From contig NZ_CP098455.1 of the NCBI RefSeq assembly GCF_023702635.1, positions 1,674,001 to 1,738,000 on the forward strand: 64,000 bases of DNA, in the 5' to 3' direction. The stretch is from Spongiibacter taiwanensis (GTDB taxonomy: Bacteria > Pseudomonadota > Gammaproteobacteria > Pseudomonadales > Spongiibacteraceae). Shown one piece after another: positions 15,271 to 37,295 of the stretch. The number at the start of each line of letters is the position of its first letter. Position 1 is the first letter of the stretch. A program made the translations under genes and the position numbers. Below the pieces are notes generated by a model. That model ran no database searches, had not been told where the DNA came from, and saw nothing but the letters and a program-made list of their open reading frames with translations.

Positions 15271-15447
15271 ATGCAAATACAGTCATCCCTTCTTTTGCTG
15301 GTCAGTTTCGCCTTCGTTTTTGCCCCAGCCCTGGGCCAATGGCTGCAGGATGGTGGCGCAGCCTGGTACCGCTACCATCTGATCTGGCTAGTGACTATCG
15401 GCTTCGTCTACCTCAGCCAACGACAGCGGCGAAACGATGACCTTTGA
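15271..15447 (+). CDS. Small membrane protein preceding cbrA
   Basis: This is a 58-residue reading frame, MQIQSSLLLLVSFAFVFA followed by a second hydrophobic stretch HLIWLVTIGFVYL and a charged tail. It probably spans the membrane twice. It overlaps the cbrA start by 11 bp, an arrangement typical of translational coupling. A small membrane protein in this position also occurs before cbrA-like genes elsewhere, as far as I recall. The ribosome site is weak. It might assist or regulate the transporter-like part of CbrA; that is inference. Confidence 0.65.
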   Translation: MQIQSSLLLLVSFAFVFAPALGQWLQDGGAAWYRYHLIWLVTIGFVYLSQRQRRNDDL

Positions 15448-18415
15448 TATCAATGCCTTATTCCTGATTGGCGTCGGCTACCTGCTGCTGTTATTCGGCA
15501 TCGCCTACGCGGCAGAGCGCCAACTCCTGCCGGAATGGCTGAGTCGCAACCCACTGGTCTATGTCCTGTCCCTCGGGGTGTATGCCAGCAGTTTCGCCAT
15601 CTACGGCGCAGTCGGTTTTGCCCAGCACTATGGCTATGCCTTTCTCAACTACTACATTGGCATTTCAGCGGCGATGGTGCTGCTGCCAGTGCTGCTGGCG
15701 CCCCTGCACCGCATCTGCAAAACCTACCGGCTCAACTCCCTAGCCGACTTATTGAGCTTTCGCTTTCGCAGCCAGCTCGCGGGCTCGCTGGTCACGATGT
15801 TTATGGCAGCGTCTGTTCTGCCCCTGCTTGCCATCCAAATTCGTACGGTGGCCGACTCCACCGAACTGTTAGGCAACCAGGGAGACCTCTTCCTCGACCT
15901 GTTTTCCGTCCGTGAAGTGGGCGCCTTTACCTTCTGCGTCCTGATCACCATTTTCACCATTCTGTTTGGATCGCGCAGCCTGACTCACAAAGACAGTCAC
16001 CAAGGACTGGTAGTGAGTATGGCGTTCGAATCGCTGGTGAAACTGCTCGCCATGCTGATGTTGGGCGCAGCCGCCGTCTGGTCCATTTTTGGCGGCCTCA
16101 GCGAAATGCAGGACTGGTTGATCAACCACCCTTCAGCCTTGACCGACCTGAACACCAAAACCCAGGCCAACGCTCAACGGCTGATTTTGGTTATGTTCTT
16201 TGCAGCAGCGGTGTGCATGCCCCACCTGTTTCACATGCTTTTCACCGAAAACTCCCGCAGCGGCAACCTGACCACCGCAAGCTGGGCGCTCCCCCTGTTT
16301 CTGTTGCTGATGAGCCTACCAATATTGCCGATTCTGTGGGCCGGGCAAGCCGCCGGCCTTTCGGTGCCCACGGATTACTTCACCCTCGGCATCCCACTGC
16401 ATCTAGAAAATCCCCAGCTGGTTATCGCCGCCTACCTCGGTGGCGTCTCGGCGGGTAGCGGGGTCATTATTGTTGCCACACTCGCCCTGGCCTCCATGAG
16501 CCTCAACCATTTGGTGCTGCCGGTCTACCGCCCCCCTGGCCAGGAGGTCGATATTTATCGCTGGCTGCTGTGGACGCGCCAGCTGTTAATTGCCGCCATC
16601 ATTTTAGTGGCCTATCTGTTTTACAATTTGCTTCCCAGCCAGGAATCGCTGACCGAACTGCTGATGATTTCCCTCAGTGGCGGCAGTCAGTTTTTACCGG
16701 CTATCGTCGCCATTCTGTACTGGCCCTCCGCCAACCGGACCGGCTTTATCAGCGGCCTTTGCGTAGGCTTCGGTATCTGGGCCGTCGGTTTACTGCTACC
16801 CATGCTCGCCGGCGTGGAAGGGGTATTCACTCGCTACTTCAATGTGTTTGAGCTACCACCGGAGCAGCACTGGATTACCGTTGCGACCCTGTCACTGGTC
16901 TGCAACGCTCTCGTTTTTCTACTGGTCTCGAGTTTCACCGAAACCCCCGCCGAAGAACGCAGCGCCGCCGAGGCCTGTACCCTGGATGACCTTAACCGAC
17001 CCAGCCGCCAGTCGCTTAACCTTCATGACGCCCGACAAATGAAATTGCGACTACAGCAAATTCTCGGTGAAAGTGCGGCCAATCAAGAATTCGATCGCGC
17101 CCTTGAGGAGCTCAACCTGCGCGAGTCTGAAACGCGCCCCTACGCACTGCGGCGAATTCGTGACCGCATCGAAGTGAACCTGTCCGCGCTGATTGGCCCG
17201 TCCAGCGCCCGCCGGGTCATTGACCGAACCCTCCCCTATACCGAAAACCTGATGGGAGAGAGTGAGGACATCAACTATATCGAGGAGCGCCTGGAACAAT
17301 ATCAAAGCCACCTGACCGGCCTGGCCGCCGACCTCGACAGCTTGCGGCGCTACCACCGGGAGACCCTGGAAAACCTGCCGATTGGGGTGTGCGCACTGGG
17401 ACAAGACCAGGAGATACTGCTCTGGAATATGTCCATGTCCGAGATCACCCACGTTCGCGGCGGCGATATCACCGGCTCCCACCTCAGCGGCTTGCCACAC
17501 AGCTGGGCAACCCTGCTCAAAGCCTTCTTCGTCAGCGAGGACTTACACTGGAGCAAGCGCAGCCTGGAAACCGACGCCGGCATGCGCTGGCTCAACCTTC
17601 ACAAAACCGAGTCCGGAATCATGGGCCGGGACGAAAAGATCGTCGTGGTAGAGGACGTTACCGAAAACCAGTTGCTGGAAAATGAACTCGCCCACCAGGA
17701 GCGGCTGGCCTCCATCGGTCGCTTAGCTGCAGGGGTCGCCCACGAAATTGGCAACCCAGTCACGGGTATCGCCTCCCTCGCCCAGAATCTACGCTACGAT
17801 ACCGACAACCCGGAAAGCCTCGAGACCGCATCGCAAATCATCAAGCAGACCCAGCGCATTACCAGCATTGTGCGCAGTCTGGTGAACTTCGCTCACACTG
17901 GCAGGGAAGATCCCACCCAGGCTATTGAAGCCGTCAATATTCGCCACTCGGTCAGCGAAGCCATGCAGCTTCTGCAACTGGACAGCGCCGCCCACCAGAT
18001 TCACTACAACAACGATTGCGCCGACGAGGTGTGGGTAATGGGCGATGCCCAGCGCCTGCTTCAGGTCTTTGTCAACCTGCTGTCAAACGCCCGGGACGCG
18101 AGCCCCCTCGATGGCATGATTACCGTCACCGCTGCCGAAAGCACCGACTCGCAAATGGCCCACATCACCATTGCCGACCGGGGTCACGGCATCGATGACG
18201 CGCTGAAAGAGCGCATTTTCGAACCCTTTTTCACCACGAAAGAACCGGGCAAAGGCACCGGCCTGGGCCTGGCCTTGGTGTACAGCATCATTCGTGATCT
18301 GGGCGGGGAGATTACTATCGAGAGCCCGGTTGCAGATCAGGGAAATATCGGCACCCGGATTCACATCCACATGCCGTTGGCGACCCCAGGCAGCCCGGCA
18401 TCCCAGCCCAGCTGA
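15437..18415 (+). CDS. cbrA: CbrA: sodium/solute symporter-fused sensor histidine kinase
   Basis: This 992-residue protein has a long N-terminal SSS-family transporter-like domain (about a dozen helices, residues 1-500), a linker, a PAS-like segment (about 640-740) and a kinase core. The phospho-acceptor His lies in [12 protein letters not shown] (about residue 768). The N box [11 protein letters not shown] (about 880), DRGHGI and [10 protein letters not shown] mark the ATPase domain. In Pseudomonas, CbrA senses carbon/nitrogen status, can bind histidine and phosphorylates CbrB. It lies between gluQ and cbrB, as in Pseudomonas. The identity rests on architecture plus order and is strong. Confidence 0.93.
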
Positions 18416-18504: not shown

Positions 18505-19929
18505 ATGGCACGAATTATGATCGTCGAAGATGAGGATGTTATCCGTCTTGCATTGCGGCGATTACTGGAGCGCAATGGCTACACGGTCGACGAGGCCATC
18601 TCTGTCAAAGAAGCGCTGACCTCTGAGAGCCTGAACCACTACGACTTAATCATCAGCGACCTCCGCCTGCCCGGCGCCCAGGGCACCGAACTGATCAACA
18701 AAACCGAATCGCCGGTGTTGATCATGACCAGCTACGCCAGCCTCAAGTCCGCCGTCGACACTATGAAGATGGGCGCCATCGACTACATCGCAAAGCCCTT
18801 TGACCACGACGAGATGCTCGATACCGTCGCTCGCATCATTCAGACCAACAGCGGCACCCAGCGCCCCGCCCGCCCATCCAAAACCACTGCCAATCGCAGC
18901 GGTATGATTGGTGGCTGTCCGGCCATGCGCCGGGTATACGAGCGCATTGAGCGGGTCGCACCCACCAGCGCCACCGTGCTCATTCACGGCGAAACCGGCA
19001 CGGGTAAAGAGTTGGTTGCCCGGGCCATTCACGAGCAAAGCGACCGGGCGGGCAAGCCGATTGTCTGTGTTAACTGCGCGGCCATCCCCGAAACGCTGAT
19101 CGAGTCTGAGCTGTTTGGTTATGAGAAGGGGGCCTTTACCGGCGCTAATGCCAACCGCATCGGTCTGATCGAAGCCGCCGATGGTGGCACCCTGTTTCTG
19201 GATGAAATCGGCGAGCTGCCACTGGAGGCCCAGGCCCGCTTACTGCGCTTCATTCAAGAAGATGAGATTCGCCGTATTGGTGCGGTGGAGTCCAGCAAAG
19301 TGAATGTCAGGCTGGTTTGCGCGACTCACCGCAATCTCAAAGAAATGGCCCAGGCCGGGCGCTTTCGAGAAGACCTTTACTACCGAATCAATGTGATGAA
19401 GCTCGAGTTGCCACCGCTGCGGGAACGAGGCAAGGATATTCTGGAAATCGCCGAAACCCTGCTCCACCGGCGCTGTGAAGCGCTAGGCAAACCACCTATG
19501 CACTTCAGCCCAAAAACGATACAGGCCATCACCACCTATGTGTGGCCCGGCAACATTCGCGAGCTCGAAAATGCAGTAGAGCGCGCGGTGATTCTGTGTG
19601 ACGGCGAGGAGATCGACAACGAACTGCTCGATATTGATCTGGAGCTGGTAGACATCAACCAGATTCGGGGCCGCCAGCCCGAACCCATTAATCGCCAAAA
19701 CCGCGATACCAGCAAGAAGGAGCCCCCTCGCCAGCGGGGCCGCGCCACCGACCCCAACGAGGACTTGTCACTGGAGGATTACTTCCAACACTTCGTTCTC
19801 GAGCACCAGGACTCCATGAGCGAGACGGAACTGGCCCAAAAACTGGGAGTCAGTAGAAAGTGTCTGTGGGAGCGCCGTCAGCGTCTCGGCATCCCTCGCA
19901 AGAAATCCAGTGCACGCTCTGGCAGCTAG
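18505..19929 (+). CDS. cbrB: CbrB: NtrC-family sigma-54 activator
   Basis: CbrB has a receiver domain (phospho-Asp in IISDLRLPG), an AAA+ domain with Walker A GETGTGKE (about residue 161) and the sigma-54 contact loop GAFTGA (about 208), and a Fis-type helix-turn-helix (ETELAQKLGVSRKCLWERR). A linker rich in Arg, Glu and Pro joins the last two. The length is 474 residues. It lies 89 bp after cbrA. Its expected target, a sigma-54 promoter with upstream palindrome, starts right after its own stop codon. In Pseudomonas that target is crcZ. Confidence 0.95.
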   Translation: MARIMIVEDEDVIRLALRRLLERNGYTVDEAISVKEALTSESLNHYDLIISDLRLPGAQGTELINKTESPVLIMTSYASLKSAVDTMKMGAIDYIAKPFDHDEMLDTVARIIQTNSGTQRPARPSKTTANRSGMIGGCPAMRRVYERIERVAPTSATVLIHGETGTGKELVARAIHEQSDRAGKPIVCVNCAAIPETLIESELFGYEKGAFTGANANRIGLIEAADGGTLFLDEIGELPLEAQARLLRFIQEDEIRRIGAVESSKVNVRLVCATHRNLKEMAQAGRFREDLYYRINVMKLELPPLRERGKDILEIAETLLHRRCEALGKPPMHFSPKTIQAITTYVWPGNIRELENAVERAVILCDGEEIDNELLDIDLELVDINQIRGRQPEPINRQNRDTSKKEPPRQRGRATDPNEDLSLEDYFQHFVLEHQDSMSETELAQKLGVSRKCLWERRQRLGIPRKKSSARSGS

Positions 19930-19938
19930 CGCCAGAGC

Positions 19939-19985
19939 GTTACCTATTCCTGCCCACTGTAACGAATGCCGTTTATATCGGTAAC
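19939..19985 (+). promoter_or_regulatory. Candidate CbrB upstream activating sites
   Basis: GTTAC at 19939-19943 and GTAAC at 19959-19963 form an inverted pair 15 bp apart. A third half-site, GTAAC, lies at 19981-19985. They are 76-122 bp upstream of the -24 element, where NtrC-type activators usually bind. From memory, reported CbrB sites in Pseudomonas use a GTTAC/GTAAC palindrome; I cannot verify the exact spacing. Confidence 0.6.
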
Positions 19986-20060
19986 AAATTCACATTCAAA
20001 TCCGCTTCCAGAAATACCAAAATTTCGCTAACCACCTGAAAATAAAGAAATTTAAAAACC

Positions 20061-20075
20061 TGGCACAGCAAATGC
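20061..20075 (+). promoter_or_regulatory. Sigma-54 (-24/-12) promoter
   Basis: TGGCAC (20061-20066), five bases, then ATGC (20072-20075) match the RpoN consensus TGGCAC-N5-TTGC with a single mismatch. The -24 half is perfect and the GC of the -12 half is kept. Transcription should start near 20087, entering the A-rich small RNA. Confidence 0.75.
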
Positions 20076-20086
20076 TTTTATACGTT

Positions 20087-20197
20087 CAAAAAACAATAAG
20101 ACATGACTAATAAAAATAACAAACTGAGAAAAATAAAAATAAGAGAGCAATAAAAAGACCTGGGTGGGGAAGACAATGTTTTCCCCTTCTTCATTTC
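20087..20197 (+). ncRNA. crcZ: CrcZ-like small RNA (Hfq/Crc decoy)
   Basis: The predicted transcript of about 110 nt lies between cbrB and pcnB, the locus of CrcZ in Pseudomonas aeruginosa. It has no convincing coding frame. It holds four perfect AAN triplet tracts: four triplets at 20089-20100, five at 20109-20123, five at 20129-20143 and three at 20149-20157. AAN repeats are the target that Hfq and Crc bind, and CrcZ works by offering many of them. A sigma-54 promoter precedes it and an intrinsic terminator ends it. It is much shorter than the roughly 400-nt Pseudomonas CrcZ, so similarity searches would probably miss it. The start and end are predicted. Confidence 0.75.
20166..20197 (+). 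terminator. Intrinsic terminator of the CrcZ-like RNA
   Basis: GGGGAAGAC (20166-20174) pairs with GTTTTCCCC (20178-20186) over nine positions, one a G-U pair, with a 3-base loop. A T-rich tract, TTCTTCATTTCT, follows. Confidence 0.8.
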
Positions 20198-20290: not shown

Positions 20291-21667
20291 ATGACATCAA
20301 GCTCCGTAGCCGGGCTGTGGAAAAAGCTCACCGACAAGCTACCCAAGTCTTCTAAACGCAGTGCCGTTAGAAACCATATTGTCGTGCCCCGGGATGAGCA
20401 CATCATTTCCCGACGCATTATCAGTGATAACGCACTAAAAGTGATGAACCGGCTGAACCAGGCAAATTTTGACGCCTTTCTGGTCGGCGGCGGCGTGCGG
20501 GATATTTTGCTTGGCGGCCAACCCAAAGACTTCGACATTGCAACCGATGCCACCCCGGAGCAGGTCCGGGACCTGTTCCGCAACAGCCGCATCATTGGCC
20601 GTCGCTTCAAAATTGTTCATGTTCGCTTCGGCCGGGAAGTCATTGAAGTCACCACCTTCAGAGGCAATCACACCGAGAAAGAGAGCAAGCATCAGTCTGC
20701 CCGCAGCGAATCCGGTATGCTGCTGCGCGACAATATTTACGGATCGGTTACGGAAGACGCCGAGCGCCGCGACCTGACCATCAACGCCCTTTATTACACC
20801 ACTCGGGACTTCTCCGTTCACGACTATGTCGGTGGCCTGCAGGACCTCAATGACCGCCTGATTCGCGTCATTGGCGACCCGGCAACGCGCTACCGGGAAG
20901 ATCCGGTTCGCATGCTGCGAGTCATTCGCTTTGCGGCAAAACTGGATTTTGACATTGAAGCCGAAACCGAAGCACCGATCCCCGAGTTGGCGCCGCTGCT
21001 CAAAGATATCGCCCCGGCCCGACTGTTTGATGAAGTACTGAAGCTCCTGATGTCGGGTAACGGCTTGCAAACCTATGCCCTATTGCAGCGCTACCACCTG
21101 TTTGCCCCCATGTTTCCGGCCACCCAGGCCATGCTGAACAAGCAGGTGCATGGTGCCGAAGCCTTGATCCAGCAGGGGCTTAGCAATACAGATGCCCGAA
21201 TTGCCGAAGACAAACCCGTCACCCCTGCTTATATCTACGCCGTGCTATTGTGGCCCGCGGTACACACTCTGCAGGCGGATATCATGGCCTCCGGCGTGCC
21301 CGAGATTCCCGCCCTGCACCAGGCCGCAGAGCGGGTCTTGCACAAACAGCAGCAAACCGTGGCGATTCCAAAACGCTTCTCGCTACCAATGCGCGATATC
21401 TGGGAATTACAGTTCCGCCTACAAAAGCGCAGCGGCAAACGGGCCGAACAACTCCTGGAGCACCGTTATTTCCGCGCCGGATTCGACTTCCTGCTGCTGC
21501 GCGAACAAGCAGGCGAGATTCCCACCGGCCTCGGCCAATGGTGGATTGCCTTTCAGGAGAGCCATCCCGAAACCCGCAGTGCCATGCTCAAGCCGGGACA
21601 ACCAGAAGCGCGCAAGCGCCCCCGCCGCAGACGCCGGCGCAGCAGCGCTCCCAGACCTCCCCAATGA
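20291..21667 (+). CDS. pcnB: Poly(A) polymerase I
   Basis: PcnB adds 3' poly(A) tails that mark RNA for decay. The nucleotidyltransferase core is seen in FLVGGGVRDILLGG-PKDFDIATDA, with the catalytic Asp pair, followed by the RNA-binding RYREDPVRMLRVIRFAAKL. The C-terminal tail is Arg/Lys-rich (EARKRPRRRRRR), as usual for this enzyme. The length is 458 residues. It overlaps folK by four bases (ATGA), so it heads the pcnB-folK-kinase-panB unit. A weak promoter (TAAAAT near 20251) may lie after the small RNA. Confidence 0.96.
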   Translation: MTSSSVAGLWKKLTDKLPKSSKRSAVRNHIVVPRDEHIISRRIISDNALKVMNRLNQANFDAFLVGGGVRDILLGGQPKDFDIATDATPEQVRDLFRNSRIIGRRFKIVHVRFGREVIEVTTFRGNHTEKESKHQSARSESGMLLRDNIYGSVTEDAERRDLTINALYYTTRDFSVHDYVGGLQDLNDRLIRVIGDPATRYREDPVRMLRVIRFAAKLDFDIEAETEAPIPELAPLLKDIAPARLFDEVLKLLMSGNGLQTYALLQRYHLFAPMFPATQAMLNKQVHGAEALIQQGLSNTDARIAEDKPVTPAYIYAVLLWPAVHTLQADIMASGVPEIPALHQAAERVLHKQQQTVAIPKRFSLPMRDIWELQFRLQKRSGKRAEQLLEHRYFRAGFDFLLLREQAGEIPTGLGQWWIAFQESHPETRSAMLKPGQPEARKRPRRRRRRSSAPRPPQ

Positions 21668-34766: not shown

Positions 34767-36935
34767 TTAGGCCTGCCGCGCCTTGAACTCACGACGGCGG
34801 GCATGCAGCACCGGCTCGGTATACCCGTTGGGCTGCTCACAGCCCTTGATCACCAGATCAATGGCTGCCTGGAAGGCCACATTGTCATCAAAGTTGGGCG
34901 CCATGTTCTGATACAGCGGGTCACCGGCATTCTGACGGTCCACCACCGCAGCCATGCGTTTGAGGGTTTCCATCACCTGCTCTTCTGAGCAGATGCCGTG
35001 GCGAAGCCAGTTGGCAATGTGCTGGCTGGAAATACGCAGGGTCGCCCGGTCTTCCATCAGGCCCACATCGTTAATGTCCGGCACTTTGGAACAGCCAACA
35101 CCCTGGTCGATCCAGCGCACCACATAACCGAGGATGCCCTGAGCGTTGTTATCCAGCTCGTTTTGAATCTCGTCGGCAGACCAGTTGGTTTCAGCAGCGA
35201 CGGGGATGGTCAGAATATCGTCCAGTGCGGCGCGCTGACGCTGGCCGATCTGCTCTTGCAGGCTCAGCACGTTTACATCGTGGTAGTGCATCACATGCAA
35301 GGTGGCCGCGGTCGGTGACGGTACCCAGGCGCAGTTGGCGCCGGCTTTGGGGTGGCCAATTTTGGCTTCCATCATCGCCGCCATTTCATCGGGCATGGCC
35401 CACATGCCTTTGCCGATCTGAGCGCGGCCGCTCAGGCCACAGGCCAGGCCAATGTCCACGTTCCAATCTTCATAGGCTTTGATCCAGGCCTGCTGTTTCA
35501 TGTCGGCCTTGCGCACAAAAGCACCGGCCTCCATGGAGGTATGAATCTCATCACCGGTCCGGTCAAGGAAGCCGGTATTAATGAAGATCACCCGCTCGCT
35601 AGCTGCTGCAATACAGGCCTTGAGGTTAACCGTGGTGCGGCGCTCTTCGTCCATAATGCCGATTTTGAGGGTATTGCGGGCCAGCCCCAGGGCGTCTTCC
35701 ACCCGGCCAAACAGCTTGGCGGCAAAGGCGACCTCTTCCGGGCCGTGCATTTTCGGCTTAACGATATAAACGCTGCCGGTGCGGGAGTTGCGCAGGCTGC
35801 CGGTTTGCTTCAGGTCATGGATGGAAGCCAACACCGTAACCATGGCATCCATGATGCCTTCGGGAATCTCGTTGCCCTCGGCATCCAGAATCGCCGGGTT
35901 GGTCATCAGGTGGCCAACATTGCGCACCAGCAACAGGCTGCGGCCGTGGAGCACTTTCTCGCCGCCATCGGGCGCAGTGAAGGTCCGGTCTGCCACCATT
36001 TTACGGGTGATGGTCTTGCCACCTTTTTGCAGCTCTTCCTGCAGGTCGCCCTTCATCAGGCCCAGCCAGTTGCGATAGACCAGCGCCTTGTCTTCGGCAT
36101 CGACGGCGGCGACGGAGTCTTCGCAATCCTGAATGGTGGTCAGAGCCGACTCCAGCGCCACATCTTTAACACCGGCTGCATCGCTTTGGCCGGTGGGGTG
36201 GCTGGCATCAATCTGAATATCAATGTGCAAACCGTTGTTGACCAACAGCACATTGGTGGGCGCGGCGGCGTCGCCACAGTAACCCGCGAACTGGGCCGGG
36301 TCTTTCAGGCCAGACTGGGCATCGCCCAGCTTGGCGACTACCGCACCGCCTTCAACAGCGTAGGCCGTTACATCGGCGTGGCTGCCACTGGCCAGTGGCG
36401 CGTGCTTGTCCAGAAAGGCCTTGGCATAGGCAATCACCTTGGCGCCGCGCACCGGATTGTAGGCGCCCGCTTTCTCAGCACCGCCTTCTTCAGAAATCAC
36501 ATCGGTGCCATACAGCGCGTCATACAGGCTACCCCAGCGGGCATTGGCCGCGTTCAAGGCGTAACGGGCGTTCATTACCGGCACCACCAGCTGGGGGCCA
36601 GCCAGACGGGCAATCTCGTCGTCTACATTTTCGGTGGTGATGCTGAAATCGCCAGGCTCGGGCAACAGGTAGCCAATATCTTGCAAGAAGGCCTTGTAAG
36701 CCGCCGCGTCAAAGCGCGTATTGTCGCGGTGCCAGGCATCAATCTGGGCTTGAATCTGGTCCCGTTTCGCCAGCAGGGCTTTGTTCTCCGGGGCCAGTTC
36801 AGCCAGGATGTCGGCCAACGCCGCCCAAAATGCATCCGCTTCTATACCGGTACCGGGAATGATGTCCTCATTGACCAGGCGATAGAGCACATCGGCAATT
36901 TGCAAACCACTGTGTTGAACGCGTTGGGTGGACAT
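34767..36935 (-). CDS. glcB: Malate synthase G
   Basis: GlcB condenses glyoxylate with acetyl-CoA to malate in the glyoxylate shunt. The 722-residue length is the G isoform. Landmarks are the GLMKGDLQ region, [25 protein letters not shown] with catalytic Arg, and [20 protein letters not shown]. The frame begins at GTG 36941, but the ATG two codons later at 36935 has AAGGAG five bases upstream. It is divergent from aceA across a 360-bp region, so the two shunt enzymes can share control. Confidence 0.97.
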
Positions 36936-37295
36936 AAACACTCCTTGAGATGTGAGAAGCCGCCGCGAGGCATCACTGCCATCATAGACGACACAGATTT
37001 TGGTGCAGCGGAAACGATTTTACAGAAGCGACCATGCTAAAGAGGCAGCAATAATTCTACAAATTTATCCAGATTATTATTGTTATTCATACTGCGAATA
37101 AAAAATGGCCTTTTCAGCCCCTAAAATTCTCTTTGCTGACAGCGAGTTAACAATCCCATTCAGCCGAGCCGCCTCATCGAAAACATTCCCCAATAAAATA
37201 ACGAGAATAAAATCTATAAATTAGAAAAATTTGTAGCGCACCCGTAGAATCGACCCCGTTAATCCACCCACCTCGCAACATTACAGGGACCTACT
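36936..37295. promoter_or_regulatory. Divergent glcB-aceA intergenic region
   Basis: This 360-bp stretch contains both promoters. Its middle (about 37050-37235) is clearly more AT-rich than the flanks, with several short A/T runs (near 37075 and 37200-37230). I could not choose -35/-10 boxes with confidence, and no strong palindrome stands out. I see no gene. Confidence 0.6.

Follow-up and report, generated by a model that had tools for sequence, protein, structure and literature searches.

The window, by which we mean the whole stretch of 64000 nucleotides that was analysed, is part of the single-contig 3.71 Mb genome of Spongiibacter taiwanensis. It carries on the forward (+) strand cbrA (15437–18415), cbrB (18505–19929), a gap of 361 bp and pcnB (20291–21667), an order which matches that of the Pseudomonas loci, and the predicted RNA gene described here lies in the gap, directly 3′ of cbrB and before pcnB. 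The cbrA product is a sensor kinase of 992 residues with a long N-terminal region and with HisKA and HATPase_c domains (Pfam), in which a Pfam transporter domain was sought with no match at 1e-3; by tblastn it displays 47–49% identity with cbrA from 12 named loci of Pseudomonas, Stutzerimonas and Serpens. CbrB, an NtrC-type sigma-54 activator of 474 residues (Response_reg and Sigma54_activat domains, Pfam), shows 61–63% identity with its counterparts from the same 12 loci, and its C-terminal sequence SRKCLWERRQRLGIPR is identical in three of them, the three compared there. Within the Spongiibacteraceae, the best segment of CbrB has 79% identity with the protein from Spongiibacter thalassae and 81% with that from ‘Neomelitea salexigens’, which NCBI places under Spongiibacter marinus. 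The pcnB product was assigned as poly(A) polymerase I on the basis of TIGR01942 (524 bits, cut-off 306) and PolyA_pol domains (Pfam). According to the parts of a 2022 review that were available to us, CbrAB is unique to the Pseudomonadaceae and the cbrA–cbrB–crcZ order is described for the genera Pseudomonas and Azotobacter only (PMC8871633); as regards the restriction of CbrAB to that family, the predicted gene products described here and below indicate otherwise.

All features of the gap discussed below lie on the + strand. Three predicted CbrB subsites are found at its upstream end, namely F1 (GTTAC, 19939–19943), R1 (GTAAC, 19959–19963, 20 bp from F1 with N15 between the two) and R2 (GTAACa, 19981–19985, 22 bp from R1). 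In the available part of a study of P. putida, CbrB subsites are defined as TGTTAC in forward and GTAACA in reverse orientation with centres 20–25 bp apart, and an F1–R1–R2 set is described at crcZ, where R2 reads GTAACg (PMC6296734). The 20 and 22 bp steps of the window fall within this range as far as sequence goes, and its F1 (cGTTAC) and R1 (GTAACg) are each one letter off the P. putida subsites. The preliminary description had listed the last GTAAC as an additional half-site; it is indeed present, and fits R2, the third subsite of an F1–R1–R2 set. R2 lies 80 bp from a predicted sigma-54 promoter, TGGCACAGCAAATGC (20061–20075), which reads TGGCAC-N5-ATGC with the GG-N10-GC spacing and has ATGC in its −12 block where TTGC is expected (A for T). 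Across both strands of the 64 kb, a GTTAC–GTAAC–GTAAC triple with steps of 18–26 bp occurs once, and TGGCAY-N6-TGC sites occur twice (20061 and 35843). Genome-wide, the combination GTAAC-N60–88-TGGCAY-N6-TGC gave five matches and the reversed-pattern control none; AAN tracts of at least four triplets were sought on the matching strand at the other four sites, and none was found.

We placed the start of the predicted RNA at 20087, i.e. 12 bases past the C of the promoter GC, which we take to be the appropriate convention, and its end was set from the terminator, giving a CrcZ-like transcript of approximately 110 nt (20087–20197). Tract 1 (20089–20100, four AAN triplets) begins at +3 of this RNA and is followed by tract 2 (20109–20123, five triplets), tract 3 (20129–20146, five AAN triplets to 20143 or six ARN triplets to 20146) and the short tract 4 (20149–20157, three triplets). 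By the AAN definition no tract reaches six triplets, and by the ARN definition tract 3 alone does so. Downstream lie a conserved 3′ module, AGACCTGGGTGGGG (20156–20169), recognized in two alignments described below (A1 and A2), and a predicted intrinsic terminator with a 9 bp hairpin (20166–20186) followed by the tail TTCTTCATTTC. Covariation in the hairpin is weak, with a two-sided change in one of ten pairs. The sites, the promoter, the four tracts (4, 5, 5 and 3 triplets) and the hairpin had all been proposed in the preliminary description, and each was confirmed in the sequence. Six tracts of at least four triplets are present altogether on both strands of the 64 kb, which hold a single cluster of three such tracts within 60 bp. 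Tract 3 together with the next triplet equals the 6ARN Hfq ligand of the amiE leader, a target of Hfq/Crc, at 15 of 18 bases (ligand sequence from the accessible part of PMC6422490); unlike amiE, which is a repressed mRNA, the window RNA is predicted to be free-standing.

As the gap is A-rich, it might be read as chance AT-rich intergenic sequence, and indeed the terminator by itself is not unusual (two overlapping sites against 1.2 expected; folding z of −1.26), so that its support rests on conservation. In 20000 dinucleotide shuffles of the gap, however, the promoter arose 28 times, the three tracts 63 times and the subsite triple never, and neither the promoter with three downstream tracts nor the full set was obtained even once (0 of 20000 each). 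These controls, together with conservation across families, refute a chance origin, to which we attach practically no weight.

The cbrB–pcnB gaps were aligned across relatives, a check which the preliminary description had put forward, and the architecture was found to be kept, with tracts conserved at a period of 3. Alignment A1 contains 21 sequences (own genome, 17 of the same genus and three of the same family), all of which keep three tracts of at least four triplets; loss of the AAN tracts in close relatives, named beforehand as evidence that would speak against the RNA, was thus not seen. In the three long tracts, invariant columns numbered 13 of 14 at position 1, 12 of 14 at position 2 and two of 14 at position 3, and mean column entropies were 0.04, 0.06 and 0.98 bits respectively. 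To check that this triplet pattern did not simply reflect a surplus of A, we also considered only those columns with A in the window, where the five position-3 columns (0.65–1.55 bits) all exceeded the 28 position-1 and position-2 columns (0.59 bits or less); the exact rank probability of this excess variation is 4e-6, a value which ignores the kinship of the sequences. The distal face of Hfq, in the account given in the consulted part of PMC6422490, offers an A site, an R site and a free N site for each triplet. With positions 1 and 2 nearly fixed and position 3 variable, the triplet-wise conservation is what would be expected of bases selected by an Hfq distal face that reads (ARN)n.

Alternatively, the A-rich stretch could belong to pcnB as its 5′ leader, in which case the CbrB/sigma-54 promoter would control poly(A) polymerase and the tracts would serve as an Hfq translational operator. 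The gene is directly next to the stretch, and the terminator has a poor T tail. Against this, a terminator-like hairpin is present in all 21 A1 sequences, the tracts stop 133 nt before the pcnB start with no further tract of at least three triplets in the window's gap, and the predicted RNA stays at 107–112 nt in the 21 sequences while the gap ranges from 353 to 555 bp. In addition, crcZ at this position in Pseudomonas is a transcription unit separate from cbrAB, as stated in the part of PMC8871633 consulted. We regard control of pcnB through such a leader as highly improbable. Even less credible is a short protein-coding mRNA: a 16-residue ORF is open in the window from an ATG at 20103, and in two relatives an ATG at a similar position opens frames of 15 residues (L017) and seven residues (L019), but 18 of the 20 other A1 sequences lack an ATG within their first 75 nt, the runs of lysine, asparagine and isoleucine are dictated by the AAN tracts, and no Shine–Dalgarno-like sequence was seen before the ATG. 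This reading was rejected, the ORF being present but unconserved.

Two features go beyond the preliminary description, namely the conserved 3′ module and the occurrence of tandem copies in relatives. The module, RGACCTGGRTGGGG, runs into the terminator and has a mean column entropy of 0.04 bits in the 21 A1 sequences, which were not picked for it. Alignment A2 comprises 22 RNAs whose rows were picked for carrying CCTGGRTGGGG, and the variants among them were AGACC (17 rows), GGACC (three) and AGGCC (two). The module could be the seed of a classical base-pairing sRNA, shown here as AGACCTGG, with the AAN tracts merely recruiting Hfq; it is conserved to the same degree as the A positions of the tracts, and the predicted consensus stem does not include its AGACCT part. 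However, three to four consecutive tracts would probably exceed what recruitment needs, and the module pattern had no match in the Pseudomonas gaps, save for a looser CTGGGGG at the terminator in four of them. We consider a base-pairing RNA of this kind to be unlikely, and a decoy for Hfq to be the better reading of the tracts.

A covariance model (R1) built on the 22 A2 RNAs gave one match in the own genome, at 110 bits, the window being among its training sequences; no second copy was found there at E ≤ 1 among the 150 of 440 first-look candidates that were scored. Across the order, R1 matched at least 50 of 390 genomes at E ≤ 1e-4, belonging to 12 families by the tool's numbering, a count which is a lower bound under strict filters and includes the training genomes. 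In the Pseudomonas loci R1 produced weak matches alone (E of 0.016 and worse).

Of 57 genomes, the own genome included, 54 gave a CbrB match at E ≤ 1e-100. We gathered 91 CbrB-like loci (30 from these matches, 37 of the 80 in the list that supplied the named loci, and 24 added to them) and retained the 75 with pcnB downstream in the stretch examined (the window's own among them), leaving out the other 16; the named loci are a sample among the matches listed rather than a census, and as two pairs of gaps are identical (L008/L072 and L015/L036) the 75 gaps represent 73 distinct sequences. A gap was scored as positive for the RNA if it held at least two GTTAC/GTAAC half-sites 40–160 bp before a GG-N10-GC promoter, followed by at least two AAN tracts of four or more triplets. 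By this rule 68 of the 75 gaps passed (66 of 73 distinct sequences), compared with 0/37 regions downstream of distant NtrC-family genes (37 of 43 loci having enough DNA to score), 0/76 pcnB coding stretches and 0/7500 shuffled gaps. The 68 positive gaps contain 73 promoters; R2 lies 78–82 bp away at 64 of these, and the offset of the first tract falls within a 5 bp range at 65. Those Pseudomonadaceae loci with an RNA that Rfam assigns to CrcZ show the same spacings from R2 to promoter and from promoter to tract. Synteny, spacing and conservation across the 68 of 75 gaps thus agree with the original proposal that the order and spacing of the parts suit a CrcZ-type RNA. Named loci outside the Pseudomonadaceae which passed include Spongiibacter thalassae, Dasania, Pseudohaliea rubra, two Gilvimarinus and three Marinobacter, among others, as well as seven loci of Halomonas (assigned to the Halomonadaceae by look-up), Litchfieldella and Onishia (which we take to belong to the same family). 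The genes and sites of the full circuit are recognizable, by sequence, in Spongiibacteraceae, Halieaceae, Cellvibrionaceae, Marinobacteraceae and Halomonadaceae, in keeping with the suggestion already made that the system extends beyond Pseudomonas.

Seven gaps failed (L039, L043, L067, L117, L123, L130 and L133). Evident but weaker versions could be seen by eye in L039, L043, L117, L123 and L130, and in the 177 bp gap of L133 nothing of the RNA architecture was found besides half-sites. L067, from Alcanivorax limicola, has tracts and a terminator, with no recognizable sigma-54 promoter in a genome that has RpoN, and is perhaps a decoy with another promoter. Loss of RpoN as the reason for the missing promoters in L067, G037 and G026 was ruled out, RpoN being present in all seven genomes tested. 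Wherever sequence could bear on it, the earlier interpretation of the locus is supported, the exceptions being these failing gaps and the genomes lacking a recognizable Crc that are described below.

Tandem arrangements were observed in several relatives. In Dasania (L037:5587–6178) the unit is doubled, with two promoters, two tract sets and two modules, and L026, L120 and L129 likewise carry two complete CbrB–promoter–AAN units in the cbrB–pcnB gap. L039 and L040 possess a second tract-plus-module unit without a recognized promoter.

Given its position, we compared the predicted RNA with CrcZ. The Rfam CrcZ model (RF01675) scored the window RNA at 8.4 bits (E of 4.9), far from the gathering cut-off of 95, and this bears out for Rfam the expectation that a similarity search would miss the RNA. 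As a control on 17 loci, the model gave 272–328 bits for the four from Pseudomonadaceae and no CrcZ match for the 13 others, and we therefore rejected Rfam as a detector, as it is blind to the short form. CrcZ of PAO1 is 407 nt long with six A-rich stretches, according to the part of PMC4063720 available. The 12 named Pseudomonadaceae gaps contain four to six tracts of at least four triplets each, and where the terminator rule fired the predicted RNAs were 366–372 nt in six Pseudomonas gaps and 387–513 nt in nine gaps of Marinobacter and Halomonadaceae; the RNA of the window and its A1 relatives does not reach the length near 400 nt of the Pseudomonas form. Like CrcZ of Pseudomonas and Azotobacter (RF01675), it lies between cbrB and pcnB, with F–R–R subsites, a sigma-54 promoter approximately 80 bp past R2 and serial AAN tracts whose start lies almost equally far from the promoter in all cases but a few. 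It differs in its length of approximately 110 nt, in having three to four tracts and its own 3′ module, and in going unrecognized by the CrcZ model. By position and predicted design it is the CrcZ of its lineage; because it does not satisfy the Rfam definition and is shorter than usual, we file it as a minimal CrcZ-like variant at the CrcZ locus and not as a member of RF01675.

CrcY and CrcX are extra copies in the same cell, dispersed elsewhere in the genome, unlike the single R1 match of the own genome and the tandem units which some relatives hold in the cbrB–pcnB gap. These two RNAs of P. putida and P. syringae antagonize Crc/Hfq, as described in the part of PMC8871633 seen, and by its sequence design the window RNA appears to be of a similar kind. 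Among the matches listed in a search of the open-licence literature by titles and abstract openings, we found no paper on CrcZ outside the Pseudomonadaceae. In a marine metatranscriptome, cbrA and cbrB transcripts were present in mesopelagic communities, their source organism not being named in the part consulted (PMC5073097).

The partner proteins that such an RNA would need are encoded in the own genome. There is one gene for RpoN (239 bits) and one for Hfq, whose best PDB match is Hfq of P. aeruginosa (residues 1–78, E of 4e-41) and which keeps the distal-face residues Tyr25, Gln33, Gln52 and Lys56. For a Crc-type protein of 261 residues (L003:1459–2244), the best match among solved structures is P. 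aeruginosa Crc (4jg3, E of 7e-61), with ExoIII chains next (Neisseria-type ExoIII, E of 5e-54 and worse). The protein is flanked by ORFs which on inspection resemble pyrE and rph, the order also being that of Pseudomonas. At the two catalytic sites of ExoIII, for which the ExoIII-type relative L001 reads CLQE and CGDFN, it reads CLQN and CGNWN. Its designation as a putative Crc follows from the best match and the degenerate site. NCBIfam would call it exodeoxyribonuclease III (TIGR00633 above cut-off), and Crc outside Pseudomonas may therefore often be misannotated.

We also surveyed Crc in 36 order-level relatives (G021–G056), reading the best match of each and both matches for G046. Both sites were degenerate in 21 genomes, three had half-degenerate or cut relatives, eight had exonuclease-type relatives only (in one of these, G042, the Crc relative is half unread), and in four no match was found at E ≤ 1e-20. 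G037 lacks both the RNA and a degenerate-site Crc, neither CbrB (E ≤ 1e-100) nor Crc (E ≤ 1e-20) was matched in G038 and G043, and in G055 CbrB is absent and a degenerate Crc relative present. In G036 (L131), G041 (L137), G044 (L134) and possibly G042, all positive for the RNA, exonuclease-type Crc relatives alone were found, so that in these genomes Hfq may suffice, or Crc may have kept the exonuclease-type residues. Crc as an obligatory partner everywhere is hence unsupported, with three, perhaps four, RNA-positive genomes having no recognizable Crc.

On the target side, an (AAN)5-type pattern gave 35 matches in the own genome, of which 30 were read as loci representing 25 places (some overlap); as the pattern is the same when reversed, a reversed-pattern control is uninformative. 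In L235 (a TonB-dependent-receptor-like ORF) and L226 (a 395-residue ORF) an AAN tract lies just before the Shine–Dalgarno sequence and start, making both candidate Hfq/Crc targets by sequence, and in L242 a tract lies just inside an ORF of 108 residues. Two plus one start-region tracts among 30 loci are a weak signal and too few for a claim. Within the window, an (AAN)5-type tract on the − strand (37074–37087) is located approximately 130–140 nt upstream of a malate synthase G-like ORF (34767–36941) and is a possible Hfq site in the leader of that gene. At L215–L218 (near 646.7 and 680.0 kb of the own genome), the strong sigma-54-like sites TGGCACAGCGTTTGC and TGGCACAGCGATTGC are immediately preceded by AAN tracts.

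Sequence architecture, conservation pattern, synteny and the genes for the partner proteins were observed directly, and from this design and the Pseudomonas precedent we infer that the RNA is transcribed in a manner dependent on CbrB and RpoN, binds Hfq/Crc and relieves repression. The gap very probably encodes a small non-coding RNA, activated by CbrB from a sigma-54 promoter, which is predicted to act as a decoy for Hfq/Crc and to relieve carbon catabolite repression. When preferred carbon is short, CbrA would phosphorylate CbrB, which would bind the F1–R1–R2 set and activate transcription from the promoter at 20061–20075. The resulting RNA of approximately 110 nt would present four AAN/ARN tracts, the last of them short; each of the three long ones could occupy the distal face of one Hfq hexamer, and Crc would probably join Hfq on the RNA. 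By titrating Hfq (and Crc) off the A-rich translation start regions of catabolic mRNAs, the RNA would relieve catabolite repression.

More speculatively, Hfq decoys driven by CbrB, with three Hfq beads and the fixed 3′ module, might form a minimal class of their own that marks Spongiibacteraceae, Halieaceae and their neighbours. The module would then have a second function which Pseudomonas CrcZ lacks (as a base-pairing seed, a protein site or a means of controlled turnover), and some lineages would use Hfq alone without Crc; we hold this possibility only tentatively and think it somewhat doubtful as a whole. If the RNA works as designed, it would offer a natural minimal decoy of approximately 110 nt for testing tract number and the role of Crc, and Hfq-based catabolite control would probably be an old trait of a large, mostly marine bacterial group.
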